From NCBI RefSeq assembly GCF_000981895.1, contig NZ_LATD01000020.1:1-64000 (forward strand): 64,000 bases of DNA, given 5' to 3'. The notes below the pieces were generated by a model. The model saw nothing but the letters and a program-made list of their open reading frames with translations, was not told the DNA's origin and made no database searches. Positions 18,666 through 37,845 of this stretch are shown piece after piece. The translations under genes and the position numbers were made by a program. This DNA comes from Streptomyces odonnellii. GTDB lineage: Bacteria > Actinomycetota > Actinomycetes > Streptomycetales > Streptomycetaceae. How positions within the stretch are numbered: the stretch's first letter is position 1; every line of letters starts with the position of its first letter.

Positions 18666-18707
18666 GGCGCGGTTCCTCTCGTATGGGCCCGGCTCGGCGG
18701 GTGGTGT

Positions 18708-19559: not shown

Positions 19560-19604
19560 GTGGTACTCGTCTTCCCGGTCGTCTGGAGGAAGGCCGCCCA
19601 GGAT

Positions 19605-20111: not shown

Positions 20112-20112
20112 G

Positions 20113-21399: not shown

Positions 21400-21440
21400 A
21401 GCCGTTTCCCTTTCAAGTACTGACCACGGGTACTGAGCGC

Positions 21441-21764: not shown

Positions 21765-21848
21765 GGTCCTACTCCCTCTCCGGGCTTCTGTCTCTTCAGG
21801 GCTGGTCTCTTCCGAAGCGACGGACGCGGCACCGAGCCATCCCGCCCT

Positions 21849-21867
21849 TGGTCCGACCATTAGACCA
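21849..21867. promoter_or_regulatory. GntR-type operator between ferredoxin operon and gpm
   Basis: TGGTCCGACCAT (21849-21860) is a TGGT-N3-ACCA palindrome. It is followed at once by TTAGACCA, which repeats the right half of the strong island site. It lies 85 bp upstream of the ferredoxin start and 64 bp before the gpm gene, so it could serve both. Confidence 0.65.
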
Positions 21868-21930
21868 GATTGCTGAGGGGTGAACAAGAAGGTGGCGCGA
21901 CCGCCGTCGCGCGTGCTCACAATCGGGCCC

Positions 21931-22689
21931 ATGCACACGCTGATCCTGCTCCGCCACGGCGAGAGCGAGTGGAACTCCAGAAACCTCTTCACCGGCTGGG
22001 TCGATGTGGATCTCACCCCGCACGGCGAGGAACAGGCACGCCGGGCCGGCCAACTGCTCCGTACCGCCGGACTGTTCCCGGACGTCGCGCACACCTCCGT
22101 ACTGCGCCGCTCCGTCCGCACCGGCACCCTCGCGCTGGCGGCGCTCGGCCGCCCCGGGGCGCCGCTCACCCGGAGCTGGCGGCTCAACGAACGGCATTAC
22201 GGCGCGCTTCAGGGCAAGGACAAGAGCGCGGTGCTGCGGGAGTACGGCGAGGAGCGCTTCCGGCTCTGGCGCAGGTCGTACGAGGTGGCTCCGCCACCGC
22301 TCACCCATGACGAGGACGAGCCGGGCCTCGCGGGCGCCGATGGCGAGCGGGTGCCGCGGACCGAATCCCTCGCCGATGTCAGCGCCCGTCTGCTCCCCCA
22401 CTGGCACGAGGCCGTCGCCCCCGATCTGCGCGCCGGGCGGACCGTCCTGGTCGTGGCGCACAGCAACTCGCTCCGCGCGCTGGCCGCGCATCTCGACGGG
22501 CTGGACCGCGACGAGCTGATGGAGCTGAACATCCCCACCGGCATCCCGCTGCTCTACACCCTCGACGAGCGGCTCACGCCGATCGCCCGCGGGGGCCGCT
22601 ATCTCGACCCGGTCACCGCCGCCGAGGCCGCCCGCGCGGTGGCCCGGGAGGGGCACCGGAGCACGCCGGCGACCGGCCCAAGGCTCTGA
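21931..22689 (+). CDS. gpmA: 2,3-bisphosphoglycerate-dependent phosphoglycerate mutase
   Basis: 252 residues of the histidine phosphatase superfamily. The phospho-His motif is LILLRHGESEWN; then come LFTGWVDVDLTPHGEEQA, the LNERHYGALQGKDKSA stretch, and the second catalytic His in VVAHSNSLRAL. These are full dPGM hallmarks, so a functional glycolytic/gluconeogenic mutase is likely. ATG 21931 is chosen at the conserved start; 17 residues upstream in frame look non-coding. Its place inside the catabolic island, beside a GntR site, is unusual for this housekeeping enzyme. It might help route pyruvate/oxaloacetate carbon into gluconeogenesis (inference). Confidence 0.9.
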   Translation: MHTLILLRHGESEWNSRNLFTGWVDVDLTPHGEEQARRAGQLLRTAGLFPDVAHTSVLRRSVRTGTLALAALGRPGAPLTRSWRLNERHYGALQGKDKSAVLREYGEERFRLWRRSYEVAPPPLTHDEDEPGLAGADGERVPRTESLADVSARLLPHWHEAVAPDLRAGRTVLVVAHSNSLRALAAHLDGLDRDELMELNIPTGIPLLYTLDERLTPIARGGRYLDPVTAAEAARAVAREGHRSTPATGPRL

Positions 22690-22717
22690 CCTGCGCGCTC
22701 GGATCCCGTATGACTCG

Positions 22718-22754
22718 TTGACACCAAAAAAGTAGTGGCCTTATGGTTCTACCA
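22718..22754 (+). promoter_or_regulatory. Promoter overlapped by GntR-type operator
   Basis: A -35-like TTGACA (22718-22723) and, 18 bp on, a -10-like TATGGT (22742-22747) precede the bicupin-eutA operon. TGGTTCTACCA (22744-22754), a TGGT-N3-ACCA palindrome, covers the -10, so a bound repressor would block RNA polymerase. Confidence 0.6.
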
Positions 22755-22799
22755 ATCCAGATGCGCGTGGCAGAGAAGCCGACCAGGAAAGGCCGTGGT

Positions 22800-23936
22800 A
22801 TGGCCCAGGACGCAATCGTCGACGACAAGCTGGCGGCAAAGTTCGCCACCGAGAAGGACTCCCCCTACACGCGCTGGGTGGCCGCGGAGGGGCTGGACAT
22901 CATCGCCGCCCACTATGTACCCGACCTGCGTACGGTCGAGCTGAAGCCGTGGGAGCGGCGGGGCGGCCGGGGCGTGTTCATCAACCACGAGGCCACCCGC
23001 ACCTCGAACGACTGCTATGTGTGCGAGATCCCCGCGGGCGGCCAACTGGCGCCCCAGCGGCAGCTCTTCGAGGAGATGATCCTCGTCCTCGACGGGCAGG
23101 GCTCGACGACGGTGTGGAACGACGCCGGAGCCCGGGTCACCTTCGAATGGCAGGCCGGATCGATCTTCGCCATCCCGCTCAACGCCCATCACCAGCACTT
23201 CAACGGCTCCGGGCTGAAGACCGCGCGCTTCGTCTCCTCGACGAACATGCCACCGGTCATCAATCTCTACGACGACGTGGACTTCGTCTTCGGCACCGCG
23301 CACGACTTCCCGGACCGCTTCAACGGCGAGCCCGACTACTTCTCCCCCAGGGGCGAGCAGAAGGGCCTGCTGCTGGACACCAACTTCGTCGCCGACGCGG
23401 TCAGTCTGCCGCTGATCGAGGCGAAGGAGCGCGGCGCGGGCGGCGGCCACATCCGCTTCGCGATGGCCAAGGGATCGATGAACAGCCATATCTCGCAGTT
23501 CCCGACCGCCACGTACAAGAAGGGGCACCGGCACGGTCCCGGCGCCCATGTGATCATCCTGTCGGGCGAGGGGTACAGCCTGATGTGGCCGGAGGGCGAG
23601 GAGCCGCGGCGCTACGAATGGGGCCCCGGCTCGCTGATCGTGCCGCCGAACATGTGGTTCCACCAGCACTTCAACACCGGCCCCGAGCCGGGCCGCTATC
23701 TCGCCTTCAAGCACGAGGTGGTCTCCATCCGCAACGCGCAGGGCGTGCCGAAGGCCTGGATCAGCCGGCGCGTCGGTGGCGACCAGATCGACTACGCCGA
23801 CGAGTCGCCGCTGGTACGGGAGACCTTCCGCGAGGCACTGGCCAAGCACGGCATGGAGCCGCGGATGGACGAGGTGTACGCGGCGGAGCTGCCCACCCTC
23901 GCGCCCCTGCCGGAGGGCACCAAGGTCACCGGCTGA
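22800..23936 (+). CDS. Bicupin protein 1 (EutA-associated)
   Basis: 378 residues with two cupin barrels. The first shows FEEMILVLDGQGSTTVW and a metal-site-like HHQHFN. The second shows GHRHGPGAHVIILSGEGYSLMW and NMWFHQHFNTG, so both barrels keep His residues for a metal. Relatives next to eutA-like genes are often labelled ethanolamine ammonia-lyase-activating protein, but gentisate- or other ring-cleavage-dioxygenase-like activity is equally possible. ATG 22800 follows AGGAAAGG. It starts a likely operon with the EutA-like gene (110-bp gap) behind the promoter/operator at 22718-22754. Confidence 0.82.
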   Translation: MAQDAIVDDKLAAKFATEKDSPYTRWVAAEGLDIIAAHYVPDLRTVELKPWERRGGRGVFINHEATRTSNDCYVCEIPAGGQLAPQRQLFEEMILVLDGQGSTTVWNDAGARVTFEWQAGSIFAIPLNAHHQHFNGSGLKTARFVSSTNMPPVINLYDDVDFVFGTAHDFPDRFNGEPDYFSPRGEQKGLLLDTNFVADAVSLPLIEAKERGAGGGHIRFAMAKGSMNSHISQFPTATYKKGHRHGPGAHVIILSGEGYSLMWPEGEEPRRYEWGPGSLIVPPNMWFHQHFNTGPEPGRYLAFKHEVVSIRNAQGVPKAWISRRVGGDQIDYADESPLVRETFREALAKHGMEPRMDEVYAAELPTLAPLPEGTKVTG

Positions 23937-24046: not shown

Positions 24047-25663
24047 GTGAGCCACGCCGGGCCGCACAACGCCGACCATCCCGACCATCACACTCACCAT
24101 CACCATCACAACGAACACACCGCGGCACACACGCACGGACACACGCACGCACACACGCATGACGACCATGCCGACGAGGAGCCCGGCGCGCTGGAGGACA
24201 ACCCGATCTGGCAGCAGGACAATGTCACGCTGCACAGCGTCGGGATGGACATCGGGTCCTCCGGCACCCAGGTCGTCTTCTCCCGGCTGCTGCTGCGGCG
24301 CATCGGCGAGGACCTGACCAGCCGGTACATCGTCGTGCGACGGGAGACCGTCTACCGCTCCCCCGTCGCTCTCACCCCGTACGCGAGTGCCGAGCGCATC
24401 GACGCCGAGGCGCTGGGTTCGGTCATCGACCGGGCGTACCGGGACGCGGCCGTGGATCCCGGCACGGTCGACACCGGGGTGGTGATCCTCACCGGTGAGG
24501 CGCTGCGCCGCCGCAACGCCGAGGCCATCGCGGGGGTGCTCGCCGAGCGGGGCGGCGATCTCGTCACCGCGACCGCGGGGCACACCATGGAGGCCATGCT
24601 CGCCGCGTACGGTTCGGGCGCGGCGAAGGTCTCGTACGACACCGGCCTGCGTGTCCTCAATATCGACATCGGCGGCGGCACGACCAAGCTGGCGGTCCTC
24701 GACCGGGGCGAGGTGGTGTCGACCGCCGCCGTCCACATCGGCGGGCGGCTCCAGGTCATGGACGGCGCGGGCCGGATCGTACGGCTCGATCCGGCCGGCC
24801 GGCGCCATGCCGCGCGGGCGGGGTTCGACTGGGCGCCCGGCGATCTCGCGCGCCCCGAGGAGACGGAGCGGGTCGCGGAGGCGATGGCGGACGCGCTGGT
24901 CGCGGCCGTCACCGGCGGTCCTCCGCCGCCCGAGGTCGCGGAGCTGTTGCTGACGGCGCCGCTCATGGTGCCGGAACCCGTCGACGGGGTGATGTTCTCG
25001 GGCGGGGTCGCCGAGTATGTGTACGGGCGGCAGAGCGAGGCGTTCGGCGATCTCGGGCTGCCGCTCGGCCGGGCGGTGCGCCGCCGGATCGACTCCGGCG
25101 CGCTGCCCTTCCCGCTGCTGCCCGCGGGCGAGTGCATCCGCGCGACCGCGCTGGGCGCCTCGGAGTACAGCGTCCAGCTCAGCGGGAACACCGGCTTCGT
25201 CTCCGACCCGGGCGCCCTGCTGCCACGCCGTGATCTGCGGGTCGTACGGCCGGTCCTGGCGCTCGGGGAGAGTGTCGACGCTGCCGCCGTCGAGGCCGCC
25301 GTACGCCACCGGCTGGCCGCCGTCGAAGAGGTGGCGGCCGATACGGACGTGGCGGTCGCGCTGTCGTGGAGCGGGCCCCCGAGCCATCGGCGGCTGCTGG
25401 CCTTCGCCCGGGGACTGCGGGACGCGCTCGCCGAGCGCACCGCGCGGGGCAGAGCCGTGCTGGTCGTGCTCGACGGCGATGTCGCCCTGACCCTCGGCAG
25501 GCTGCTCAGGGACGAACTCGGGGTCACCGGACCGCTCCTGGTCATCGACGGGCTGCGGCTGCGGGACTTCGACCACATCGACATCGGACGCGTCCGCCGG
25601 CCCTCCAACACCGTGCCCGTCACCATCAAGTCCCTTGTCTTCGGCGAGGATCCCCGTCTCTGA
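24047..25663 (+). CDS. eutA: EutA-like reactivating ATPase with histidine-rich N-terminus
   Basis: 538 residues. Residues 1-41 contain 18 His in runs like HTHHHHHNEH and THGHTHAHTHDDH. From about residue 65 the ASKHA/EutA ATPase fold is clear: VGMDIGSSGTQVVFSRLLL, TVYRSPVALTP, NIDIGGGTTKLAVLDRGE and MFSGGVAEYVYG. EutA exchanges damaged cobalamin on ethanolamine ammonia-lyase, but no eutB or eutC occurs in the window. The His-rich head suggests Ni, Zn, Co or Fe handling, so reactivation of a different metalloenzyme, such as the neighbouring bicupin, is conceivable. GTG 24047 follows GACGAGGAG. Confidence 0.85.
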   Translation: MSHAGPHNADHPDHHTHHHHHNEHTAAHTHGHTHAHTHDDHADEEPGALEDNPIWQQDNVTLHSVGMDIGSSGTQVVFSRLLLRRIGEDLTSRYIVVRRETVYRSPVALTPYASAERIDAEALGSVIDRAYRDAAVDPGTVDTGVVILTGEALRRRNAEAIAGVLAERGGDLVTATAGHTMEAMLAAYGSGAAKVSYDTGLRVLNIDIGGGTTKLAVLDRGEVVSTAAVHIGGRLQVMDGAGRIVRLDPAGRRHAARAGFDWAPGDLARPEETERVAEAMADALVAAVTGGPPPPEVAELLLTAPLMVPEPVDGVMFSGGVAEYVYGRQSEAFGDLGLPLGRAVRRRIDSGALPFPLLPAGECIRATALGASEYSVQLSGNTGFVSDPGALLPRRDLRVVRPVLALGESVDAAAVEAAVRHRLAAVEEVAADTDVAVALSWSGPPSHRRLLAFARGLRDALAERTARGRAVLVVLDGDVALTLGRLLRDELGVTGPLLVIDGLRLRDFDHIDIGRVRRPSNTVPVTIKSLVFGEDPRL

Positions 25664-25961: not shown

Positions 25962-27068
25962 ATGCGACATGGTGCTCTTACGGCCGGCCTCGTGGCCGCC
26001 GGATTGATCCTCACGGGTTGCGGTTCTTCTCCCACGACCCAGTCCCCCGGCGGCCAGGCCGCCGACACCGACCCCTACGCCCCCTACGCCTCGCTGACCG
26101 GCCAGGCACGGACGGACAAGCTGCTCGCCGACGCGAAGAAGGACGGCGCGCAGATCGACCTCTACACCTCGAACACCGATATCCAGGACCTCGTCGACGG
26201 CTTCAAGAAGGCCTATCCGGAGATCAAGGTCAACGCGTTCCGCGCCAACTCCGAGACGGTCCTCCAGCGGATATCCCAGGAGAACCAGGCCAACAAGCCG
26301 CAGAACGACGTAGTCGACACCAATGACATCGAACTGCGCGCACTGGACTCGCAGGGCCTGCTCAAGCCGTACACGGGACCGGCCGCGGCCGGCCTCAAGG
26401 ACGCGGCGAAAGGGCTCGGTGGCTGGACCGCGGAGCGTTTCAACGCGTTCGTCATCGGCTGGAACACCAACCTCGTCAAGAAGGGCCAGGAGCCGAAGAG
26501 CTTCGCCGACCTGGCCGATCCCCGCTGGAAGGGCCGGTTGTCCGTCGAGATCGGCGACTGGGACTGGTACGCGTCGATGCATACGTACCTCACCGAAGAG
26601 CAGGGAATGAGCCAATCCGATGCCGACGACCTCTTCAAAAGGATCGCCGCCAATGTCAAGGTGACGAAGGGCCACACGGTGCAGGGCGAACTCCTCAGTG
26701 CGGGACAGTTCGCCGTAGCCCTGTCCGTATACAGCCACACCGTCGACAAGGCCGCCAAGAAGGGCGCGCCCGTGGCATGGCGGCCCGTGGTGGAACCAGT
26801 GATCCTGCGACCCAACGGAGTCGGCCTCATGTCCCATCCCCGGCACCCCGCCGCAGCGCTGCTGTGGACGGACTGGGTGCTCGGCGACGGGCAGAAGGCG
26901 ATCGCCGAGTCCCTTCGCATCCCGGCGGCCACATCCGTACCGGGGTTCCAGGACCCCATCCCGGCCGGCACCACCACCTACAGCTTCTCGAAGTCCGCAG
27001 AGACGGACGGCAAGCGGTGGAGCGCCGACTACGACGCCCTGCTGCGCGGCGTGCCCAAGGCCGGCTGA
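25962..27068 (+). CDS. ABC importer lipoprotein, solute-binding (AfuA/FbpA type) 1
   Basis: 368 residues. A lipoprotein signal ends in LILTGCGSS (lipid-modified C20), so it is exported and membrane-tethered. The mature part has the type II periplasmic binding fold with IDLYTSNTDIQDLVDGF, NAFRANSETVLQRI, TERFNAFVIGWNTN-like segments and DPRWKGRLSVEIGDWDWY. Although the family is usually called iron-binding, I see no adjacent Tyr-Tyr ligand pair as in FbpA, so an organic anion ligand is likely. It is first in the operon SBP1-SBP2-permease-ATPase and has a GntR operator upstream. Confidence 0.85.
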   Translation: MRHGALTAGLVAAGLILTGCGSSPTTQSPGGQAADTDPYAPYASLTGQARTDKLLADAKKDGAQIDLYTSNTDIQDLVDGFKKAYPEIKVNAFRANSETVLQRISQENQANKPQNDVVDTNDIELRALDSQGLLKPYTGPAAAGLKDAAKGLGGWTAERFNAFVIGWNTNLVKKGQEPKSFADLADPRWKGRLSVEIGDWDWYASMHTYLTEEQGMSQSDADDLFKRIAANVKVTKGHTVQGELLSAGQFAVALSVYSHTVDKAAKKGAPVAWRPVVEPVILRPNGVGLMSHPRHPAAALLWTDWVLGDGQKAIAESLRIPAATSVPGFQDPIPAGTTTYSFSKSAETDGKRWSADYDALLRGVPKAG

Positions 27069-27108
27069 CCCACTCACCGTTTGCACCTCTTCACAGGAGC
27101 GCACCCGT

Positions 27109-28215
27109 ATGAGGACCCGTAACTTCACTTTCTCCGTGTCCGGTCTGCTGGCCGCGACGCTCGTCGCGGGGTGCGGCGGCATGCCGGGCCAGGCCGGCGC
27201 GGGCTCGGACGAGGTCTACGGCCGGCTCCGGGGACTGGCCGGCACCGAGCAACGCGCGCAGGCGGAGGAGCTGGCCGGGAAGGAGGGGAAGACCCTCTCC
27301 CTGTACACCTCGATGACCGCCGACATAGCGACCCCGATCGCCGAGGCCTTCGAGAAGGAGTACGGCATCCGTGTCAGCGTCTTCCGCGGCAACTCGGAGA
27401 CGGTCCTCCAGCGGACCCTTCAGGAACAGGAGGCCGGCCGTCCGGGGGCCGATGTCATCGAGACCAACTTCGCGGAGATGGCCATCCTCGCCGGCAAGGG
27501 GCATCTCGCCGACTACAACGGCTCCGCTCTCGACAAGGTCGAGCCGGCCGGGAAGTTCGACCACTGGACGGCCACCCGTTTCAATGTGTTCCAGCCCGCC
27601 TGGAACACCACGAAGATCAAGCCCGGTGACGAGCCCAGGAGCTGGGAGGACCTGGCCCTGCCCAAGTACCGCGGCAAGATCACCATGGAGATCAGCGACA
27701 GCGACTGGTACGAGAACGTCACCAAGTACTGGCTGGACCACGGAAAGTCACAGGCCGAGGTGGACACCCTCTGGAAGGGCATCGCGGCCAACTCCAAGGT
27801 CGCCAAGGGACACACCACGATGATGCAGTTCCTGACCGCGGGCCAGACCTCGATGGAGGCGATGAACTACACGTACATCACCGCCAGGGCCGCCAAGGAC
27901 GGGGCGCCGGTGACCCATCTGCCGGCGAGCGGGGTCTCCACCGTTCCCGCGTTCGCACGGCCCAACGGAGTCGGCATGATCAAGGGCGCCCAGCACCCGG
28001 CCGCGGCCTGGCTGTTCTACGACTGGCTGCTCACCGGCGGCCAGCAGACCCTGGTCGATCTGGGCCTCACCCCGTCCACCAAGGTCCCCGGCGACAAGAG
28101 CGTCGCCGGGCTCACCCTCGTACCGTTCGATGTCGAGGGCCTGACGAAGGACGACACGGTCTGGGACAAGAAGTACGACGCGCTGCTCCGCGGCGCCGAC
28201 ACGGTGGGGCGGTGA
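27109..28215 (+). CDS. ABC importer lipoprotein, solute-binding (AfuA/FbpA type) 2
   Basis: 368 residues and a clear paralogue of the preceding lipoprotein: the same length, lipobox VAGCGGM (C22), VFRGNSETVLQRTLQ, and YRGKITMEISDSDWYENV. The genes are 40 bp apart, a tandem duplication giving one transporter two receptors. As in its sister, no Tyr-Tyr pair is visible. Sequence differences around ITARAAKDGAPVTHLP imply a different ligand preference or a second conformer. The permease starts 6 bp after this stop, so coupling is tight. Confidence 0.85.
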   Translation: MRTRNFTFSVSGLLAATLVAGCGGMPGQAGAGSDEVYGRLRGLAGTEQRAQAEELAGKEGKTLSLYTSMTADIATPIAEAFEKEYGIRVSVFRGNSETVLQRTLQEQEAGRPGADVIETNFAEMAILAGKGHLADYNGSALDKVEPAGKFDHWTATRFNVFQPAWNTTKIKPGDEPRSWEDLALPKYRGKITMEISDSDWYENVTKYWLDHGKSQAEVDTLWKGIAANSKVAKGHTTMMQFLTAGQTSMEAMNYTYITARAAKDGAPVTHLPASGVSTVPAFARPNGVGMIKGAQHPAAAWLFYDWLLTGGQQTLVDLGLTPSTKVPGDKSVAGLTLVPFDVEGLTKDDTVWDKKYDALLRGADTVGR

Positions 28216-28221
28216 CGCGCG

Positions 28222-30018
28222 ATGGCACTCGCCTCCACCGCCACCGCTCCGCAGGGCGGCCAGGGGACTCCGGGCACGGGGGCCTCCCCCGAGCCCGCGT
28301 CCCCCGGCCGGTTCGCGGGGCTGCTGCGGCGACTGCTCTCCTTCCAGGGCCTCCTGGTCGGCGGCGCCGTGGTGATCGTCGGCTATCTCGCCCTCGTACC
28401 GCTGGGCTATCTCATCCATGACACCTTTCTGAACAGCACCGGCACCGGTGTCTCGTTCGGCGCGTTCAGCCGTGCCTACGGAGGCAACTCCCAGGCCGGC
28501 TCGATGATGCTCAACTCGCTGGGCTTCGCGCTCGGTTCGGCGGCGCTCGCGCTGGTGCTCGGTACGGTCCTGGCCTATATCCAGGTCCGTACCGACACCC
28601 CCTTCAAGGGGCTGTTCTTCGCGGCCTCGCTGGTGCCGCTGATCGTGCCCGGCATCCTGTACGCGACCTCGTGGATCTTCCTCGGCGACCCGTCGAGCGG
28701 CGTCATCAACACCCTGATCTTCCAGCCGCTGTTCGGCACCGCACCGGTCAACATCTTCAGTGTGTGGGGCATGATCTGGGTGCAGGGGCTGCATCTGGCC
28801 CCCGTCACCTTCCTGCTCATGGTCGCCGCGTTCCGGGCGATGGACCCCTCGCTGGAGGAGTCCGCGGCGATGTCCGGCGCCCGGCGGCTCACCGTACTGC
28901 GGCGGATCACCGTCCCGCTGCTGCGCCCGGCGATGATCTCGGCCTCGCTGCTGATGTTCGTCCAGTCCCTGGAGAGCTTCGAGGTACCCGGCCTGCTGGG
29001 ACTCCAGAACGGCATCTACGTCTTCACCAGCCGGATCTACTTCGTCCTGCGCGCCTATCCGATCGACTACGGCGCCGCGGGCGCGCTGGCCATCGGGCTG
29101 CTGGTGATCGCGGCGGCCGGGGTGCTGCTCTCCGGCTGGCTCCAGCGCTCCTCGCGCAACTTCCAGACCGTGACCGGCAAGGCGTTCCGGCCCCGGCCGG
29201 TGGACCTGGGCCGGGCACGGCCCTGGGTGGGCGCCGGGGTGATCGTGTACTTCCTGGTCACGGTGGTCCTGCCGGTCGCGGTCCTCGTCTACGCGTCCCT
29301 GCTCAAGTACTACGCCGCGCCCTCCCGCAAGACGCTCAGCTCGATGTCGCTGGAGAACTACAGCGAGGTGCTGCACATGCCCCTCGCCTTCACCGCGCTG
29401 AAGAACTCACTGATCGTCGGCATCGGCGCGGCCACCGCGGTCATGCTGCTGACCTCGATCGTCTCCTGGGTGGTGCTGCGCACCAGGGCACCGGGGCGGC
29501 GGGTGCTCGACCTGCTCGCCTTCACCCCCATCGTGATCCCCGGGCTGGTCCTCGGCCTGGCGCTGTCCTTCGTCTATCTGCGGATGCCGCTGCCGATCTA
29601 CGGCACGCTGCTGATCCTGCTCGTGTCGTACTGCACCCGCTATCTGCCGTACGGGATGCGCTACTCGTCCGCGGCGATGGCCCAGATGTCGCCGGAGCTG
29701 GAGGAGTCGGCGGCGGTCTCGGGCGCCTCGTGGTTCCAGACCTTCCGGCGGGTGCTGCTGCCGCTGATGAGCAGCGGCATCCTGGCCGGCTGGGTCTACA
29801 TCCTCGTGGTGTCCTTCCGCGAACTGTCGAGCACGATCCTGCTCTACAGCCCCGGCAAGGAAGTGCTCTCGGTCCTGATCTGGGAGCAGTTCGAGAACGG
29901 CCAGTTCACCACGCTCGCCGCGCTCGGTGTCTGCATGGTCCTGATCCTTGTCCTGCTCGTCTCCATCGCCTACCGCCTGGGAGCCCGCTTCGGGCTGCAG
30001 GGCGACTCGTCGAACTAG
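28222..30018 (+). CDS. ABC importer permease, fused two-half type (FbpB/AfuB)
   Basis: 598 residues, about 12 membrane helices in two similar halves, each with an EAA-type loop: MDPSLEESAAMSGARRL (first half) and SPELEESAAVSGASWF (second half). This duplicated layout is typical of FbpB-like permeases, which form the whole channel from one chain. An N-terminal tail of about 35 residues is cytoplasmic and Pro/Gly-rich. It sits between the two lipoprotein genes and the ATPase gene (24-bp gap). Confidence 0.9.
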   Translation: MALASTATAPQGGQGTPGTGASPEPASPGRFAGLLRRLLSFQGLLVGGAVVIVGYLALVPLGYLIHDTFLNSTGTGVSFGAFSRAYGGNSQAGSMMLNSLGFALGSAALALVLGTVLAYIQVRTDTPFKGLFFAASLVPLIVPGILYATSWIFLGDPSSGVINTLIFQPLFGTAPVNIFSVWGMIWVQGLHLAPVTFLLMVAAFRAMDPSLEESAAMSGARRLTVLRRITVPLLRPAMISASLLMFVQSLESFEVPGLLGLQNGIYVFTSRIYFVLRAYPIDYGAAGALAIGLLVIAAAGVLLSGWLQRSSRNFQTVTGKAFRPRPVDLGRARPWVGAGVIVYFLVTVVLPVAVLVYASLLKYYAAPSRKTLSSMSLENYSEVLHMPLAFTALKNSLIVGIGAATAVMLLTSIVSWVVLRTRAPGRRVLDLLAFTPIVIPGLVLGLALSFVYLRMPLPIYGTLLILLVSYCTRYLPYGMRYSSAAMAQMSPELEESAAVSGASWFQTFRRVLLPLMSSGILAGWVYILVVSFRELSSTILLYSPGKEVLSVLIWEQFENGQFTTLAALGVCMVLILVLLVSIAYRLGARFGLQGDSSN

Positions 30019-30042
30019 CACCTGCCCGAAGGGACACCAGGG

Positions 30043-31179
30043 ATGCTGACTGTCGAATCCCTCGCCAAGAGCTATGAATCGTCCGCGGGCTCCGCGCGCC
30101 GCCGCAAGTCCGCCGACAGCACCCGTGTCTTCGCCGTCGACGGAGTCGACTTCGACGTACGCGACGGTGAGCTGTTCACCCTGCTCGGCCCGTCCGGCTG
30201 CGGCAAGACCACCACCCTGCGCTCCATCGCGGGCCTCGAACACCCCACGGCCGGCCGGGTCAGCCTCGGCGACCGGGTGCTGTTCGACTCCGCGAAGGGG
30301 ATCAATCTGCGGGCCAACCGCCGTGGTTTCGGCATGGTCTTCCAGTCGTACGCGATCTGGCCGCACATGTCGGTCTTCAAGAACGTCTCGTTCCCGCTCG
30401 ATGTGATGCCCCGCGCCAAGCGGCCCGGGCGCAAGGAGATCGAGGAGCGTGTCCAGCAGGTGCTCGACGTGATCGAGCTGGGCGCGTACGCCTCCCGGCC
30501 GGCCACCAAGCTCTCCGGCGGCCAGCAGCAGCGCCTCGCGCTGGCCCGGGCGCTGGTGACCCAGCCGGAGCTGATGCTGCTCGACGAGCCGCTCTCCAAT
30601 CTCGACGCCAAGCTGCGCGAGAGCATGCGCTTCGAACTCAAGCGGCTCCAGCGGGAGCTGAACCTCACCGCGATCTATGTGACCCATGACCAGTCCGAGG
30701 CGCTGGTGATGTCCAACCGGATAGCGGTGATGAACGAGGGACGCATCGAGCAGATCGGCAAGCCGCGCGAGATCTACACCAAGCCGGCCACCCGGTTCGT
30801 CGCCGAGTTCATCGGTACGTCCAACTTCATCGAGGCCAGGGTGGTGTCGGTGACGGGCGACGAGGTGACCGTCGAGACCACGCAGGGGCGGCTGGTGGCG
30901 CGGGAGTGTCCGAGGACGCCCGCCGCCGGGGACTCGGTCCTGCTGTCGATCCGGCCGGAGTCGATCGACGTCTCCACCACGCCGCGGGGCGACGTTCCCA
31001 ACGAGTGGTCGGGGAAGGTCCGTACGCGCGCGTTCCTCGGCGACGCCATCGACCACATCACCGGGGTCGGCGATCTGGAGATCCGCAGCCGCTCCAACCC
31101 GACGGTGTCGATACCGCCGGGCACCGAGGTGCATCTCACCGTGGCTCCGGAGAAGGTCACGCTCGTACCGGTCGACTGA
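30043..31179 (+). CDS. ABC importer ATP-binding protein (FbpC/PotA type)
   Basis: 378 residues. Walker A is LLGPSGCGKTTTLRS, the Q-loop is near MVFQSYAIWPHM, the signature is LSGGQQQRLALAR, Walker B is LMLLDEPLSNLDA, and the H-loop is TVTHDQ-like (AIYVTHDQSEAL). The C-terminal about 130 residues form a TOBE/regulatory domain, usual in importers of this class. It powers the preceding permease. A GGGCC-rich hairpin follows at 31195-31237. Confidence 0.92.
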   Translation: MLTVESLAKSYESSAGSARRRKSADSTRVFAVDGVDFDVRDGELFTLLGPSGCGKTTTLRSIAGLEHPTAGRVSLGDRVLFDSAKGINLRANRRGFGMVFQSYAIWPHMSVFKNVSFPLDVMPRAKRPGRKEIEERVQQVLDVIELGAYASRPATKLSGGQQQRLALARALVTQPELMLLDEPLSNLDAKLRESMRFELKRLQRELNLTAIYVTHDQSEALVMSNRIAVMNEGRIEQIGKPREIYTKPATRFVAEFIGTSNFIEARVVSVTGDEVTVETTQGRLVARECPRTPAAGDSVLLSIRPESIDVSTTPRGDVPNEWSGKVRTRAFLGDAIDHITGVGDLEIRSRSNPTVSIPPGTEVHLTVAPEKVTLVPVD

Positions 31180-31371: not shown

Positions 31372-32610
31372 GTGTCCCGCATGGCGATACCCGAGGTGCT
31401 GCGCAACCGTGACTTCACCCTCTACTGGGGCGGTGTGATCCTGTCCCAGATCGGGACACGGGGAGCCGTCGCCGCCAATCTCTACCAGGTCTACGAACTC
31501 ACCGGCTCCACCGCGCAGGTGGGCCTCGTCGGCCTCGCGCAGGCCGTCGCCCTGCTGGTGCTGTCTCCGCTCGGCGGTATCTACGCCGACCGGCTCGACC
31601 GGCGGCGCCTGCTCCAGGTGACCCAGTGTCTGGCGCTCGTCGTGTCGGCCGGGCTCGCCGCCGTCACCCTCGCCGACGCGGCCACGGTCTGGACGGTCGT
31701 CGTCTCCTCGCTGCTGGCGACGGCGGCGGCTACCTTCGACCAGCCGGCCCGCCAGGCGCTGATCCCCGCGATGGTGCCGAGGGAGCGGCTCGTCGACGCC
31801 TTCGCCCTGCTCAACCCCTCGCGCGAACTGGCGGTTCTGGTGGGCCCCGCGCTCGCGGGTCTGCTCATCGCGGCCGGCGGCCCCGGCGCGGTCTATGTCT
31901 TCGACACCGTGACGTACGGGGCGCTCGTCGCCGTCCTCGCCGTGCTGCGGGTTCCGCCGCTGGCCGTGGCCGACGAGCGGACGTCGCTGCTGGAGAGCCT
32001 GCGCGAAGGCGTGGCGTATGTCGGCGGCAAGCCGCTGGTACGGCAGCTCATGGGGCTCGATCTGGCGGCCACGGTGTTCGGCGCGTACCGGGTGCTGCTG
32101 CCCGCGTTCGCCGCGGACGTGCTGCACACCGGGGCCACCGGGTACGGCCTGCTCGCCGCCGCTCCCTCGGCGGGGGCGCTGATCGGTTCCGTGTGGGTCT
32201 TCAAGCTGGTGCGTACCGCGCGTTCGGGCCGGATCGTCCTGTGGGCCACGGCCGCGTACGGGCTGGCCGTGGCGGGTCTCGCGCAGTCACGGGTGTTCCC
32301 GGTGGCGATCGTGATGGCCCTGGCCCTCGGGGCCGCGGACGCGCTCGCCACCACCGTCCGGCATGCCGCGGTGCAGGTGGAGACACCGGACACACTGCGC
32401 GGACGGGTCTCCGCCATCTACCAGATGTGCTCACGGGGCGGTCCCGCGATCGGGGACTCCGTGATCGGCGCGCTCGCCGGAGTGGCGGGTCCCGTGCTCG
32501 CGCTCACGCTCGGCGGTCTGGTCCCCACCGCCGTGTCCGGGCTGAGCGCCCTCGGCAGCCGTACGGTCCGCGACTACAGCGTGCCGAAGGCGCAGCCCGC
32601 CTCCACCTGA
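31372..32610 (+). CDS. Major facilitator superfamily transporter (EntS-like)
   Basis: 412 residues with about 12 membrane helices. The MFS loop signature is seen as GGIYADRLDRRRLL between helices 2 and 3, and a LVDAFALLNPSRELAVLVGPALAG segment is typical of the EntS/MFS_3 subfamily. It could export or import an organic acid, siderophore or drug. GTG 31372 is taken as start, following GGGAGAGGCGTA; an ATG three codons later is possible. It lies inside the island but its own promoter shows no clear GntR palindrome. Confidence 0.85.
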   Translation: MSRMAIPEVLRNRDFTLYWGGVILSQIGTRGAVAANLYQVYELTGSTAQVGLVGLAQAVALLVLSPLGGIYADRLDRRRLLQVTQCLALVVSAGLAAVTLADAATVWTVVVSSLLATAAATFDQPARQALIPAMVPRERLVDAFALLNPSRELAVLVGPALAGLLIAAGGPGAVYVFDTVTYGALVAVLAVLRVPPLAVADERTSLLESLREGVAYVGGKPLVRQLMGLDLAATVFGAYRVLLPAFAADVLHTGATGYGLLAAAPSAGALIGSVWVFKLVRTARSGRIVLWATAAYGLAVAGLAQSRVFPVAIVMALALGAADALATTVRHAAVQVETPDTLRGRVSAIYQMCSRGGPAIGDSVIGALAGVAGPVLALTLGGLVPTAVSGLSALGSRTVRDYSVPKAQPAST

Positions 32611-32711: not shown

Positions 32712-33788
32712 ATGAGTACGCACACCACGACCGAAACCACCCACTACCACGTACAGAAACGCCGCCGCGCCCAGTTCATCGAGGACTGGCGCAAGAACCA
32801 CCGCACCGTCGTCGCACACGAGGACGTCGAGACACATCCCACCGCGCGCGGCAGCCGGGTGGGGGTGTACGTCGGCGCCGACGGCGACCGGCCGACCCGC
32901 ACCATGGACGCCCTGGTCCATGAACTCGGTCCGGGGACGACGACCACAACACACCGCCACTCGTGGGACGCCATGGTGTTCGTGGTGGCCGGGCACGGCT
33001 GGTCCGAGATCGACGGGGAGCGCGTCGAGTGGGGGCCGGGCGACTCCCTGCACTTCCCTGCCTGGTCCTGGCACCGCAGTGGCAATGCCGGCGAACCGGG
33101 GGCCGCGACAGCGCGCTATCTGACGTTCTCCAGCGAACCGCTCCTGGAGACCATGGGCATGGCCGTCATCGAGGACGCGGGACACGCTTCCTGGGACACA
33201 CTCCCGCCGCGGCCGCCGTACTCCGAGGGACACGACGGGGCCGATCCGTACGCCGCGCGGCTGCGCCGGCTCGCCCGCGACCAGCGGGCCCGCCGCTCGG
33301 GACGGCTGCACACGAGCTGGGACGAGCTGGAACTGCGCAACACTCCGCGCGGTACCCGTACCACTTTCCTGCTCGACCAGGCCATCGGCTACCAGGCCTC
33401 CGGCATCACCATGGCCATGTTCGAAATCGGTCCCGGCCGCGCCCAGTCGATGCACCGGCACCCGGGCGAGGCCTGGCTGTACGTGGTGGAGGGCTCGGGC
33501 GAGAGCTATCTGGGCACCGAGCCGGAGGGCGGCGAGCGGCACCCCTGGAAGAAGGGCGATCTGATCGTCGTCGACCACTTCCTGTGGCACCAGCACATCA
33601 ACACCGACCCGTCGCGTACGGCGAAGGTGGTGCGCATCCATATGTTCGACAGTCTGCTGGAGACCATGCGGGCGCTGTGCGATCCGCTGGTGCTGTTCGA
33701 GGAGCCGCCGGACCACATCCGGGACGCGCAGGCCGGTGACCCGTCGACCGTCGAGTGGCCGCCGCTCCGGCGGCCCACCTGGCCATGA
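32712..33788 (+). CDS. Bicupin protein 2
   Basis: 358 residues with two cupin domains. The first has TTTTHRHSWDAMVFVVAGHG and AWSWHRSGN; the second has AQSMHRHPGEAWLYVVEGSG and FLWHQHINTD. Both keep HxH-type pairs that bind Fe, Mn or Ni in cupins. The acidic partner of motif 1 is Glu in barrel two and Asp in barrel one. It is close in plan to the products at 22800 and 34883, so the island holds three paralogues. ATG 32712 follows GGAAGGAACC. The TRIP13-like ATPase gene starts 98 bp after its stop. Confidence 0.82.
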   Translation: MSTHTTTETTHYHVQKRRRAQFIEDWRKNHRTVVAHEDVETHPTARGSRVGVYVGADGDRPTRTMDALVHELGPGTTTTTHRHSWDAMVFVVAGHGWSEIDGERVEWGPGDSLHFPAWSWHRSGNAGEPGAATARYLTFSSEPLLETMGMAVIEDAGHASWDTLPPRPPYSEGHDGADPYAARLRRLARDQRARRSGRLHTSWDELELRNTPRGTRTTFLLDQAIGYQASGITMAMFEIGPGRAQSMHRHPGEAWLYVVEGSGESYLGTEPEGGERHPWKKGDLIVVDHFLWHQHINTDPSRTAKVVRIHMFDSLLETMRALCDPLVLFEEPPDHIRDAQAGDPSTVEWPPLRRPTWP

Positions 33789-33885
33789 GCGGTGGCGCCA
33801 TGAGCTGTCGCGCCACGCGCGCTCGTGCTGTGCGCGGTTGTGCCACGGACGGGAGCGCGGTGGGATCGCACGGAAGGTGTACGAG

Positions 33886-34800
33886 GTGACCGTAGCTCTG
33901 CCGCACGGTGTGGCGGGGATCCATGCCCTGCCCGCCGGTCACCACGACGGCCCGTGGGACGCGGTGATCACCGGTCCCCGGGTCAAGGAACGGCTGCTCG
34001 CGACCGCCGTCCTCGTGCTCCGGCACGGGGCGCGGCTCGCGGGCTCCGCCGTGGCGCCGCACGGTCTGATCGTCCTCGCGGGACCGCCGGGCACCGGCAA
34101 GTCGACCCTGGCCCAAGGGCTGGCGCAGGCCGCCGCGCGGACCCTGGCACCGCACGGCGCGACCACCCTCGTCGAGGTCGATCCGCATGCCTTCCCCAGC
34201 GAGATGCTGGGCGAGAGCCAGCGCTCGGTCTCCCGGCTCTTCCGGGAGACCCTGCCGGAACTGGCCGCGCGCCGTCCGCACACGCTGGTTCTCGTGGACG
34301 AGGTCGAGGCGCTGGCGGTGCGCCGGCAGGCCGCCTCGTTCGACACCAATCCCGTCGATGTCCACCGGGCGACCGATGCCGTGCTCAGCGGGCTGGACGC
34401 GCTGCGCGCCGAGCGTCCCGGCACCCTGCTGGTGGTCACGACGAACTTCGCCGAGGCGGTCGACGACGCGTTTCTGTCCCGCGCCGACCTGGTCGTAAGG
34501 ACCGCTCTGCCGGACGAGTCCGTGATCCCGCTGATCGTGGCGGACTCGTTGCGCGAACTGGCGTCCCAGTGGCCCGCGTTGGGAGCGCTGGCCGAGGACA
34601 CCGCGGTGCACCGGCGGGTGGGGAAGCTGCTCGCCGGTCTGGACGGGCGGCGGATACGCAAGACGGTGCACGGCGCCCTCGCACTGCGGCTGGAAACCGC
34701 GCGCGACCCGTCCCTGCTGGGGGCGGACGATCTGATCGCGGCGGCGGAGGAGAGCTCGGCGGGCGGGCCCCGGGCCGAGTGTGAGCGGGCCGGAGCGTGA
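33886..34800 (+). CDS. Pch2/TRIP13-like AAA+ ATPase
   Basis: 304 residues of one AAA+ module. Walker A is GPPGTGKST (66-74), Walker B is TLVLVDEVEAL (D138, E139), sensor 1 is Asn187 in VVTTNF, SRADLVV carries a candidate arginine-finger region, and sensor 2 is GLDGRRIRKT. The segments DEVEAL, NPVDVHRATDAVLSGLDAL and GLDGRRIRK match eukaryotic TRIP13/Pch2 and bacterial Cap6-like remodellers. No HORMA gene or cyclase is adjacent, so this is not a CBASS unit. GTG 33886 is chosen because GGAAGG lies 8 nt upstream; GTG 33877 is an alternative. It possibly remodels a neighbouring enzyme. Confidence 0.83.
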   Translation: MTVALPHGVAGIHALPAGHHDGPWDAVITGPRVKERLLATAVLVLRHGARLAGSAVAPHGLIVLAGPPGTGKSTLAQGLAQAAARTLAPHGATTLVEVDPHAFPSEMLGESQRSVSRLFRETLPELAARRPHTLVLVDEVEALAVRRQAASFDTNPVDVHRATDAVLSGLDALRAERPGTLLVVTTNFAEAVDDAFLSRADLVVRTALPDESVIPLIVADSLRELASQWPALGALAEDTAVHRRVGKLLAGLDGRRIRKTVHGALALRLETARDPSLLGADDLIAAAEESSAGGPRAECERAGA

Positions 34801-34882: not shown

Positions 34883-35884
34883 CTACCGCGCGCTGTACTC
34901 GGGAGCGTCCTCCAGGAAGTGGACGTTGTCGTAACCGAGGTGCTTGAACACACGGTTCTGCGAGGAGAAGAGACGCAGCGGTGTGCCGTCGGCGGCGAAG
35001 AGCTGGCAGATGTGGTTCTGCGGTACGTAGAGGGTGTCGCCCTGGGTGATCTCGTACCGGGTGGGCTCCAGGGCGATCCGCGCGTAGTACTTCTCGGCGA
35101 TCTCGGCCTCGACCTCCCACTGGAGCGCGTAGCCGCCGCCTTCGAGGACGTAGAAGACCTCGTCGGCCATCTTCCAGTACTTGCCGGAGCGGCTGCCCGC
35201 GGGGATGTCGAGCTCGAAGGCGTCGACGGAGAAGATCCGGGCGTCGGTGCGCTCCGGGGAGGACATCACCCGGACCCGGCCGAGCGGGGTGTTCTCCCAC
35301 TTGGTGTCCGCCGGGCTGATGACCTTCTTGCGGTCCAGGACACCCGGGGTCCAGATGCTGGACCAGTCCTCGCGGGGCCCGAACTCGGCCTCACGCTTCA
35401 CCGGGCCGCTGCGGCCCTGCTGCCACAGGCCCATGAACATCCAGGTGCTCTTGGCCTTGACGACGAGTGCGGTGGCCGTCTCGCCGTACGGGTTGAAGTG
35501 GCGGTGGACGGAGTCGGTGTGGACGAAGACGAGGTCGTCCTTGGCCCAGTCGTAGCGCTGGTCGTCGTGGATCTCGTAACCGCGCCCGCGCAGGATGTAG
35601 AAGGCCGCCTCGTTCTGGTGGCCGTGTCCGTGGTTGCTGGACTCGGGCGGGAGTTCCACGAAGTGGACCTGGATCGTCTGGGTGAGGAAGTCCTCGTCAC
35701 CGGGGCCGACACGCCACCAGGTACGGGACTGCTCGCTGTCGCCGGAGTGGCCGACCTTGGCGTCGTCGACGACCACCGAGTCGTCGCGCACTCTGTCCAC
35801 CGCGAGCTGCTGCCGGCGGAATTCGTCGAGACCGTAGGTCTCGGACGTCAGGCCGCGGACGAAGACGCGCCCTTTCGCTCCCAT
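34883..35884 (-). CDS. Bicupin protein 3
   Basis: 333 residues with two cupin domains. The first is His-rich: SSNHGHGHQNEAAFYILRG with SVHRHFNPYG. The second (MADEVFYVLEGGGYALQW and VPQNHICQL) keeps few metal-type His residues, so perhaps only one barrel is catalytic. It differs from bicupins 1 and 2 in this asymmetry. ATG 35884 follows GGAGGACCC. The promoter carries GTGGTCTAACCAT at 35938-35950, marking it as a GntR target and a single-gene transcript. Confidence 0.82.
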   Translation of the reverse strand: MGAKGRVFVRGLTSETYGLDEFRRQQLAVDRVRDDSVVVDDAKVGHSGDSEQSRTWWRVGPGDEDFLTQTIQVHFVELPPESSNHGHGHQNEAAFYILRGRGYEIHDDQRYDWAKDDLVFVHTDSVHRHFNPYGETATALVVKAKSTWMFMGLWQQGRSGPVKREAEFGPREDWSSIWTPGVLDRKKVISPADTKWENTPLGRVRVMSSPERTDARIFSVDAFELDIPAGSRSGKYWKMADEVFYVLEGGGYALQWEVEAEIAEKYYARIALEPTRYEITQGDTLYVPQNHICQLFAADGTPLRLFSSQNRVFKHLGYDNVHFLEDAPEYSAR

Positions 35885-35937
35885 GGGTCCTCCTGTGCTG
35901 TGCGGGCATAGTGGTGCGGCATCTACAGTTCGGTTCA

Positions 35938-35950
35938 GTGGTCTAACCAT
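35938..35950. promoter_or_regulatory. Strong GntR-type operator before bicupin 3
   Basis: GTGGTCTAACCAT reads on the other strand as ATGGTTAGACCAC, matching 12 of 13 bases of the importer site at 25793-25805. It lies 53 bp upstream of the bicupin 3 start. Confidence 0.7.
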
Positions 35951-36141: not shown

Positions 36142-36948
36142 TCAGCCTGTGGCCGGGCCGCCTTCCGCGTGCTCGTCCTTGACCCGGGACGCCGTCCGCT
36201 GGAGGTGGGCGTTCATGGTCGCGGTCGCGGCGTCGAGGTCGCGCGCGGCGACGGCCTCGACGAAGTCCCGGTGTTCCTTCGAACCGAGCAGGCCCATCTG
36301 CGGCTCGACGGTCTGGGCCTGCCGCAGGCTCATCAGCAGGGGGCCATGGAAGGACTCGACCAGCATCTTGATCGCGGCGTTGTGCGTACAGGCCGCGACA
36401 CGGGTGTGGAAGTCCGCGGACAGTTCCATGGTGTACTCGCCGCGCTCCAGCGCCTCGGCGTGCTCGTCGCACATCGCCCGCAGGTCGTCCAGGTCCTCCT
36501 GTGTCGCCCGTTCGACGATCAGGGGGACGATGCCCAACTCGACGACGAGCCGCGCCTCTGTGACCTCGGCGGCGGTGAGCGGCGACAGCGACAGCAGGGT
36601 GGCGAGACCCTCCCCCACCTGGCGCGCGTCGGGCGTGGTGACGAAGGCGCCGCCGCGGGCACCGACCCGGATCTCCACGAGCCCGCTGGCCTCAAGGATG
36701 CGCAGCGCTTCGCGCACGGTCACCCGGCTGACCCCGAAGTGCACGCACAGCTCGCGCTCACTCGGCAGCCGGTCGCCGGGTTTGAGCCGCTCCTCCTTCA
36801 GCAGCAGCCGGATCTGATCGACGATGACCTGCGAGACACGGCTGGAGGAAACGGTCTTGAACAGCTCTTCGGGCACGGGAAGTCGCCCGGCAGGCGTCTC
36901 GCCACCGGTCTGCGCTGCCGGAGGCTGGCTCCTGGGTCGGGTTGGCAT
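36142..36948 (-). CDS. FadR-subfamily GntR transcriptional regulator
   Basis: 268 residues. The winged helix at about 45-105 carries GDRLPSERELCVHFGVSRVTVREALRILEASGLVEIR, here best read as PSERELCVHFGVS, VTVREALRILE and the wing VGARGGAFV. The C-terminal FCD domain has the family's acidic/His ligand residues (ADFHTRV, SKEHRDFVEAVAARD). Such proteins typically release DNA when an organic acid binds. It is divergent from the class II aldolase gene, 99 bp away, over a candidate autoregulatory site. I infer it controls the TGGT-N3-ACCA sites throughout the island. ATG 36948 follows GGGAC. Confidence 0.9.
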   Translation of the reverse strand: MPTRPRSQPPAAQTGGETPAGRLPVPEELFKTVSSSRVSQVIVDQIRLLLKEERLKPGDRLPSERELCVHFGVSRVTVREALRILEASGLVEIRVGARGGAFVTTPDARQVGEGLATLLSLSPLTAAEVTEARLVVELGIVPLIVERATQEDLDDLRAMCDEHAEALERGEYTMELSADFHTRVAACTHNAAIKMLVESFHGPLLMSLRQAQTVEPQMGLLGSKEHRDFVEAVAARDLDAATATMNAHLQRTASRVKDEHAEGGPATG

Positions 36949-36978
36949 GCGCACAGTGTCCCACGGCGGGACGCTCGT

Positions 36979-37047: not shown

Positions 37048-37845
37048 ATGACCGACCGTGCGCCCGGCGGCGGAGCACCGCGCGACGAGCAGGGGTACGA
37101 GGCGCTGCGCGAGCGGGTGGCCATGGCGTGCCGAGTGCTGGCCGTCACGGGGCTGGTCGAGCACATCCTCGGCCATGTCGGCGCGCGTGTGGGTGCGGAC
37201 AGGCTGCTGATACGGGGACGGGGCCCCCGGGAACGCGGGCTGGCCTTCACCGTCGTCGACGATGTCCAGGAAGTCGACCTCGACGGCCGTCGTACGGGCG
37301 AAGGCGGCGCCGACGGATGGGCGCCGCCCAACGAACTGCCCCTCCACACCGAGATCCTGCGCGCCCGGCCGGAGGTCACCGCGGTCGTGCACGCGCATCC
37401 GCCGGCGGTCGTCGCGGCCTCGGCCGCCGGGCTCCCCTGGCTTCCGCTGGTCGGCTCGTACGACATCCCCGCCGCCCGCCTCGCCCGCGACGGCATCCCG
37501 GTCTGGCCCCGCTCGGCCCTGATCCGCCGCCGCGACCTGGCCGCGCCGATGACCGCCGCGCTGGGCGACCGCCCGGTGGTGGTGCTCAAGGGGCACGGCC
37601 TGGTGACCGTGGGCACCGGCGACCCGGCGGACGCCGTGGCCACGGCCGTCACCCTGGCCCTGGCGGTGGACTCACTGGCGAAAATGACCCTCTCCATAGC
37701 CGCCGTCGGCGCCCCTCTCCACCCGATCAGCGACGAGGACCTGGCCGAACTCCCCGACCTGGGCCCCTCGTTCACCACCACGACGATGTGGCAGCACCTG
37801 GAAGCACGGGCCACCCACGAGGGCCCTCACACCCCACTGCGCTGA
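37048..37845 (+). CDS. Class II aldolase/adducin family decarboxylase (3,4-dihydroxyphthalate type)
   Basis: 265 residues of the class II aldolase/adducin fold. Metal-binding His residues are seen in NELPLHTEILRARPEV and VVHAHPPAVVAAS, and a later His in LKGHGLVTVG. The family includes fuculose-phosphate aldolase and 3,4-dihydroxyphthalate 2-decarboxylase (PhtC) of Gram-positive phthalate degraders. Given two Pht5-like proteins and a phthalate-type Rieske oxygenase nearby, a decarboxylase role is the better guess. It marks the right edge of the island, converging on the 37875 gene with 29 bp between. Confidence 0.8.
   Translation: MTDRAPGGGAPRDEQGYEALRERVAMACRVLAVTGLVEHILGHVGARVGADRLLIRGRGPRERGLAFTVVDDVQEVDLDGRRTGEGGADGWAPPNELPLHTEILRARPEVTAVVHAHPPAVVAASAAGLPWLPLVGSYDIPAARLARDGIPVWPRSALIRRRDLAAPMTAALGDRPVVVLKGHGLVTVGTGDPADAVATAVTLALAVDSLAKMTLSIAAVGAPLHPISDEDLAELPDLGPSFTTTTMWQHLEARATHEGPHTPLR

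Follow-up and report, generated by a model that had tools for sequence, protein, structure and literature searches.

What does a TRIP13-like AAA+ ATPase do when its gene lies between two bicupin genes? To our knowledge, TRIP13/Pch2 proteins are regarded as specialists for HORMA proteins, and we know of no TRIP13 without a HORMA client and no AAA+ activase of a cupin enzyme. The gene that raises the question lies in a window of 64,000 nucleotides, which is the whole stretch of DNA analysed here and comprises positions 1-64000 of contig C113 in an 8.28-Mb assembly; the nearest loci are from Streptomyces. The ATPase gene and its immediate neighbors are as follows:

32712..33788, + strand: bicupin 1 (cupA), 358 aa, gentisate/salicylate 1,2-dioxygenase-like by sequence profile and predicted fold, the proposed client
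32712..32741, + strand: Thr-rich N-terminal tail MSTHTTTETT of bicupin 1, predicted to be disordered, the proposed handle
33886..34800, + strand: AAA+ ATPase of the TRIP13/Cap6 clade, 304 aa, placed by sequence and profile matches, predicted fold and phylogeny
34081..34104, + strand: Walker A, GPPGTGKS, by alignment
34186..34221, + strand: pore loop 1, HAFPSEMLGESQ, aligned with human HSLFSKWFSESG
34285..34308, + strand: Walker B, LVLVDEVE, by alignment
34477..34488, + strand: arginine-finger-like SRAD, by alignment
34883..35950, - strand: bicupin 2 (cupB), downstream of the ATPase and convergent with it, not universal in the neighborhood

The ATPase reading frame is real. It begins with a GTG at 33886, preceded by GGAAGG, and ends with a stop at 34800. 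Its dN/dS was 0.10-0.15 relative to eight Streptomyces orthologues and 0.24-0.37 relative to four distant ones, implying purifying selection on the gene. The 304-residue product is missing the N-terminal adaptor domain. Walker A, the DE of Walker B, sensor 1, the arginine finger, and sensor 2 were invariant or nearly so in the alignment, with roles assigned by homology. The S and R of SRAD, which by homology we take to be the arginine finger, were invariant in the same alignment. Locus L011 was omitted from this and one further alignment because its reference ran beyond a stop at codon 296, near the normal end.

An earlier note on this DNA had called the protein a Pch2/TRIP13-like AAA+ ATPase, and comparisons of sequence, profile, structure, and phylogeny all favored TRIP13 over other AAA families. 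The top five PDB sequence matches were TRIP13/PCH-2 (best 2.4e-25, 92.9 bits), versus 72 bits for Cdc48, and with a family profile the scores were 173 versus 132 bits. The PADLOC TRIP13 model (PDLC00915) matched 289 residues at 307 bits (E 2.6e-92), and the best NCBIfam model was that of another antiphage ATPase, at 50 bits. Searching with an AlphaFold model of the protein (mean pLDDT 87.3, pTM 0.84) resulted in TRIP13, PCH-2, and E. coli Trip13 occupying rows 1-16 of Foldseek (best 1.3e-13), followed by spastin. The same proteins took ranks 1-7 of VIA-align, from Z 22.4 (6p8v_A, 3.2 Å over 256 residues) to Z 20.2 (6pb3), with proteasomal ATPases beginning at Z 20.0, tied with the lowest TRIP13 rows.

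Trees gave the same placement. With three outgroup AAA proteins (two from the window's own genome and one from G683), the TRIP13 clade had support of 100/100. Support was lower (96/91) with six outgroups, namely L002, L003, L004, L006, L072, and L073, of which the three-outgroup tree drops L002, L006, and L073. Decayed, remnant, repeated, or further related sequences (L001, L048-L059, L064, L065, and L069-L071) were omitted, and the row for L011 extends seven residues beyond its stop, where the tree tool treats the asterisk as a gap. The ATPase belongs to the TRIP13 clade. Like eukaryotic TRIP13/Pch2, it has a large and a small AAA domain, which align to residues ~105-120 to 430; unlike it, the ATPase has no N-terminal domain and no pore-loop W-F, and no HORMA gene was found in its genome. 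Two further proteins were placed along the way. A second AAA protein about 30 kb off, shortly beyond the end of the window (L002, C113:65321-65833, 38% over 190 residues) fell outside the TRIP13 clade in the six-outgroup tree. A haloarchaeal plasmid ATPase (L087:5908-6912, 28-31% identity) fell within it in both trees, on a long branch, and no annotated HORMA or cyclase gene adjoins it.

Beyond its two bicupins, the ATPase gene is surrounded by genes of transport and metabolism:

22800..23936, + strand: bicupin 3 (cupC), followed by the EutA-like gene
24047..25663, + strand: EutA-like reactivase (PF06277)
25962..31179, + strand: ABC importer, consisting of two solute-binding proteins, a fused permease and an ATPase
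31372..32610, + strand: MFS transporter
36142..36960, - strand: GntR/FCD regulator
37048..37845, + strand: class II aldolase fold, 3,4-dihydroxyphthalate decarboxylase family (NF053537, 306 bits, cut-off 200)

Positions 10763-23936 encode a Rieske oxygenase (LigXa_C), a ferredoxin, a reductase, a LigK-type aldolase, an amidohydrolase, and hydrolase-like genes, ending with bicupin 3. This island looks like a catabolic one, probably for an aromatic acid. PanB-like and RpiB-like genes also lie within 10763-21755, and other actinobacteria have some of these genes close to the ATPase and bicupin 1.

We next considered which neighbor the ATPase might act upon. Searching with the ATPase sequence alone gathered 42 loci, and tblastn located bicupin 1 in 40 of them, always as the next gene upstream and on the same strand. 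Grouping by gene caller counted 37 loci for each of the two genes, versus 40 by tblastn. The two exceptions were a 65-residue ATPase remnant (L049) and a 28% match from outside the family (L050), and one of the 40 paired loci (L048) is a broken pair. A script set the starts of both genes, and individual gaps may therefore be misjudged, but the gap was -4 to 22 nt in 38 of the 40 loci, with a 4-nt overlap in seven; the two deviating gaps (L026 and L038) stem from start choice or a bicupin frameshift. In the window the spacer (33789-33885) is 97 nt versus 16 nt in most Streptomyces relatives, about 80 nt extra. Hosts of the pair come from many actinobacterial families and include Streptomyces, Kibdelosporangium, Mycobacterium, Arthrobacter, Actinomadura, Pseudonocardia, Nocardioides, and Micromonospora, as well as one acidobacterial metagenome-assembled genome (MAG), making two phyla in all. 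The other families represented in the 42 loci were the solute-binding protein (29), importer permease (29), MFS transporter (26), bicupin 2 (24), and EutA (20). An ABC-ATPase group was counted in 30, but it mixes different ABC ATPases. The pairing of the ATPase with bicupin 1 is therefore well supported as real and conserved.

The pair is sparsely distributed, as only 6 of 297 Streptomycetaceae genomes have the ATPase, all six paired with bicupin 1 and of species partly overlapping the 42 loci. This patchiness suggests that the pair spreads with a horizontally moving island, as would be expected if the linkage were neutral and an ordinary AAA protein were carried along. We find that explanation scarcely credible given a dN/dS of 0.10-0.15 and the persistence of the pair across two phyla where other neighbors differ. 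Protein distances of the ATPase and the bicupin were correlated across 38 loci (r = 0.775, omitting L038 for its bicupin frameshift) and across 22 non-Streptomyces loci (r = 0.676), with 0 of 2000 permutations reaching either value, and shared transfer can explain part of this correlation.

Close relatives of bicupin 1 are also rare. Among 396 genomes of the phylum, relatives with E up to 1e-50 occurred in three: the window's own genome, G732, and G594. The G594 bicupin is 58% identical and has similar importer and TPP genes, with no ATPase within the 16 kb read; the phylum search returned no TRIP13 match from G594, which was presumably part of the sample. In a class sample of 296 genomes, close bicupins were present in four (the window's, G095, G345, and G361), all with the ATPase adjacent, and G335 and G352 had bicupin relatives of 45-50% with no ATPase adjacent. 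The bicupins of G594, G335, and G352 imply that the fold does not require an activase in general. In a midpoint-rooted tree, the ATPase-linked bicupins, together with an unlinked copy from G932, constituted a single clade (91/94), which suggests that the partnership was probably formed once.

Three loci depart from the usual arrangement in an instructive manner. In Streptomyces carpinensis (L048:9600-10760), a deletion of about 650 nt removes the end of bicupin 1 together with the start of the ATPase gene. The leftover bicupin has a stop, and the leftover ATPase has a frameshift. The flanks remain 93% (9 kb) and 92% (4.8 kb) identical to S. spiralis L020. Since one deletion touches both genes, this is a joint loss rather than two independent losses. 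In G732 (L075), the ATPase and bicupin genes are convergent yet adjacent. In G932, a MAG with 6% contamination, an ATPase 74% identical to that of G732 lies behind an ABC gene on a contig without a bicupin. A different contig of this MAG carries TPP, GntR, and bicupin 2 genes and, next to them, a bicupin sharing 81% identity with the one in G732. Hence, G932 keeps both genes though they are unlinked.

The earlier note had suggested that the ATPase was recruited to act on an enzyme, with bicupin 2 as the client. Recruitment is plausible, but the choice of bicupin 2 did not hold up: it was present in only 24 of the 42 loci and is on the opposite strand in the window. Bicupin 1 is the likelier client because it is directly upstream in 40 of 42, and on this comparative evidence we consider it the likely one. 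Alternatively, the target of the ATPase could lie elsewhere in the pathway (bicupin 2, bicupin 3, the TPP enzyme, or a transporter), its link to bicupin 1 being no more than co-transcription. The importer permease family, found in 29 of 42 loci, and the G932 ATPase, which follows an ABC gene rather than a bicupin, are in keeping with this idea. However, the permease family is missing from the other 13 loci, and 11 of these retain both genes of the pair intact, several of them read over 20 kb. Bicupin 1 occurs in 40 of the 42 loci, and the joint loss in L048 affects only bicupin 1 and the ATPase. We therefore regard a different client as quite unlikely.

Where the ATPase came from is suggested by its relatives. 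A plasmid collection contained 13 of them at 28-46% identity, the thirteenth being the haloarchaeal protein. The remaining 12 (40-46% identity) have a CBASS-type HORMA gene one gene further on, and an annotated CBASS cyclase follows the HORMA gene in 10 of these records, the other two having no usable annotation. The nearest relatives beyond the bicupin-linked group are type III CBASS Trip13/Cap6 proteins on plasmids. The bicupin-linked ATPases formed one group (96/99 with three outgroups, 83/84 with six) nested among CBASS Cap6 proteins, and in the three-outgroup tree this group adjoined two actinobacterial CBASS proteins with moderate support (89/73). Such nesting makes a direction from CBASS to catabolism the simpler reading of the history, although the placement of the deepest bicupin-linked member (L075) is loose, as grouping it with the CBASS rows had a p-AU of 0.457.

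The ATPase resembles the Trip13/Cap6 of type III CBASS (E. coli MS115-1, 6p8v) in clade, length, ATPase motifs, and the lack of an N-terminal domain, and differs in having a bicupin neighbor and no HORMA or cyclase found. Ten alignment columns set 28 bicupin-linked ATPases apart from 10 CBASS proteins, and L075 shares seven of the ten. Three of these columns (P104, E106, and E110) fall in pore loop 1, which contains SEMLGES in the ATPase versus S-(A/S/G)-x-(M/H/L)-G-(K/Q)-(T/S) in CBASS Trip13/Cap6. Residues W221/F222 of the TRIP13 pore loop are replaced by M107/L108, a point against our main reading below, and are also absent from the 10 aligned CBASS proteins. Judging by this alignment, the aromatic pair is a mark of the eukaryotic TRIP13 branch only.

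We looked for a HORMA partner using a profile built from nine plasmid HORMA proteins, which replaced PF02301 because a search with the latter gave no control match. The new profile found solved bacterial HORMA structures and, in an independent CBASS genome (G900), a HORMA gene just behind that genome's own Cap6 (E 1.3e-33). With this CBASS-HORMA profile, which proteins very unlike CBASS HORMA could escape, no HORMA gene was found in nine genomes having a bicupin-linked ATPase. The sole match in the window's own genome covered 36 residues at E 0.035, which is chance level, and at 1e-5 the only match among 396 genomes of the phylum was in G900. Run on 10 island proteins, also at 1e-5, PADLOC matched no model for a CBASS cyclase or effector; its only matches were three other defence-ATPase models, all on the ABC-transporter ATPase. 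A DNA search of E. coli genomes for the CBASS row gave no match. Because HORMA and cyclase features were searched for and not found, the ATPase is not part of type III CBASS, and we file it in the TRIP13 clade rather than as a HORMA remodeller. This agrees with the earlier description of a gene outside any CBASS or HORMA context, with no HORMA gene found nearby or elsewhere in the genome.

The locus might still be a defence module, with the bicupin as a new effector or sensor under the control of the TRIP13 protein. We consider this very improbable. The 307-bit match to the PADLOC TRIP13 model and the CBASS identity of the closest outside relatives speak for it, but they are outweighed by the missing HORMA, cyclase, and effector genes and by the nature of the neighbors, which are importers, a decarboxylase, a Rieske oxygenase, and aromatic-pathway genes. 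Moreover, phages yielded no match to the ATPase at 1e-6, and plasmids yielded none to bicupin 1 at 1e-20 and none to the ATPase above 46%.

What kind of enzyme bicupin 1 might be was approached through its fold. It has two invariant sets of three histidines, one per cupin domain (H81, H83, and H121; H248, H250, and H293), which by homology are presumably metal sites. Its best sequence-profile match was gentisate 1,2-dioxygenase (3bu7, 2.8e-23). Salicylate 1,2-dioxygenase (2phd) held the first rows of VIA-align (Z 23.6, 4.9 Å over 283 residues), tied with oxalate decarboxylase (Z 22.9), and Foldseek placed oxalate decarboxylases first (1.2e-18 versus 1.2e-16). Identity to gentisate and salicylate 1,2-dioxygenases is 17-21%. 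Equivalog scores fall far short of their cut-offs, with the gentisate 1,2-dioxygenase model TIGR02272 at 56.1 bits against 442.1. The bicupin fold with a 3-His site is present in bicupin 1, and the same features occur in oxalate decarboxylases. These comparisons relate bicupin 1 to gentisate 1,2-dioxygenase at the superfamily level only, and a decarboxylase would also be possible.

The N-terminus of bicupin 1 offers a candidate point of attack. Residues 1-9 have pLDDT below 50 in the AlphaFold model, and T5 and T7 in the tail, along with H11 and Y12 behind it, were invariant in 22 bicupin sequences. The pattern [RHK]-T-x-T-x-x-[TSA]-H-[YWH] was present in 38 of 39 linked loci (L009-L047) and, in the 39th (L038), sits in the frameshifted first piece of the bicupin. 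It was found in none of four bicupin loci without the ATPase (L060-L063). Within the bicupin tree, a Thr-rich tail was present in all 24 linked bicupins (23 beside the ATPase and the unlinked G932 copy), and shortened or missing in G594, G335, and G352 (three copies). Part of it also occurs in another G932 bicupin, one that is not associated with the ATPase. The tail is suggestive, but not diagnostic. Disorder combined with conservation, in a tail encoded next to a pore-loop ATPase, would be the expected look of an unfoldase handle.

Two related ideas were set aside. Mimicry of a HORMA N-terminal tail was considered as the two look alike (Thr-rich, e.g., MSTSTST and MSTRTTT), but the likeness was weak relative to background: 10 linked bicupins scored in the top ~0.5-5%, with 4 to 40 of 780 background genes scoring as high, and the unlinked G594 bicupin equalled some linked ones. 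A C-terminal RPTWP motif was considered as the handle. Most linked bicupins retain it, but L039 and L075, which are also linked, lack it, and the motif is predicted to be ordered.

A second ATP-driven factor may be encoded in the same island. The EutA-like gene matched PF06277 at 360.6 bits (cut-off 27), and NCBIfam EutA models reached at most 291 against a cut-off of 598. Bicupin 3 precedes it in 20 of 21 loci, the window included, with 8 copies complete and 12 truncated at the end of the locus but identified through tblastn; most of these loci are Streptomyces and not independent. In the 21st, the preceding gene is wholly cut off by the locus edge. EutB, a subunit of the usual EutA client, was found in none of five genomes searched, including the window's own, using a control that matches E. 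coli. EutA is a reactivase of ethanolamine ammonia-lyase, and the kind of role suggested here for the AAA ATPase is the same. The two are not homologous, as the EutA fold is actin-like and unrelated to AAA. By analogy, a EutA-like gene beside bicupin 3 without EutB can be taken as an independent hint of reactivation in the island. Bicupin 3 and the EutA-like gene form a second ATPase-bicupin pair.

The clade, the intact ATPase motifs, the near-obligate pairing, the joint loss in one species, and the lack of any HORMA gene found are direct observations. From here we infer bicupin 1 as the client, its tail as the handle, and activation as the outcome. Our main reading, to which we assign a probability of roughly 0.55, is that the ATPase derives from a type III CBASS-like ancestor and has turned into a dedicated partner of bicupin 1, remodelling or reactivating it via the N-terminal tail. 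The ATPase, a hexamer by homology, would dock on bicupin 1, and its pore loops would grip the disordered Thr-rich tail. One or a few power strokes could then locally open the bicupin barrel or oligomer, releasing an inactive state (an oxidised metal, a wrong metal, or a stuck ligand) and leaving the enzyme active again. Fe(II) dioxygenases can lose activity through metal oxidation, and we therefore favor an activase or reactivase, with an assembly factor as its first rival.

The proposed action would resemble that of CbbX, the activase of red-type Rubisco. There, cbbX lies directly downstream of rbcL-rbcS and the CbbX pore pulls the C-terminal tail of RbcL (PMC5385338). In both systems the AAA+ gene immediately follows that of the enzyme, and tail pulling, as proposed here, would be a further shared feature. 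They differ in AAA family, as the CbbX model TIGR02880 scored 14.6 bits against a cut-off of 459.25. In TRIP13 itself, the pore loop couples hydrolysis to the client and a client N-terminal region is needed for binding, though which client end is pulled is disputed (PMC5717197).

Under that first rival, the ATPase would serve in assembly or as a negative switch, converting oligomeric or folded states of the bicupin (assembly, disassembly, or one-time metal loading) with no repair. The same pairing in 40 of 42 loci fits it, and TRIP13 converts client conformers and does not repair catalysis (PMC4439613, PMC5717197). Against it, repair is favored by the catabolic surroundings and by the presence of an EutA-like gene in the island, though neither separates the two directly. 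On balance we judge this rival unlikely, though well above negligible. A bolder version of the reactivation reading, which we place just short of even odds, is that a bacterial TRIP13 branch was recruited once from antiphage CBASS as the dedicated activase of a non-HORMA bicupin, gripping its Thr-rich tail, so that the island with its EutA-like gene would hold two unrelated ATP-driven cupin reactivases.

In the titles and abstract openings of the open-licence literature, we found no description of a TRIP13-type ATPase with a cupin enzyme. If true, reactivation of bicupin 1 would be the first case known to us of a TRIP13 whose client is not a HORMA protein and of a cupin enzyme with an AAA+ activase, and would reveal an unsuspected need for ATP-driven upkeep of cupin enzymes. 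A conserved TRIP13 branch with a different client would mean that the fold itself does not dictate a preference for HORMA proteins, and the pair, with only two genes, would be a simple system for studying how specificity is set by pore loop and client tail. There is also a practical implication, as defence models such as the PADLOC TRIP13 model would flag such ATPases as parts of CBASS and could mislead.

More distant bicupin relatives without the ATPase occur at L066:7275-8972 and L068:7795-9452. Each lies ~90-130 nt from a same-strand gene, which is a peroxiredoxin (AhpC/TSA) in L066 and a gene of equal size in L068.
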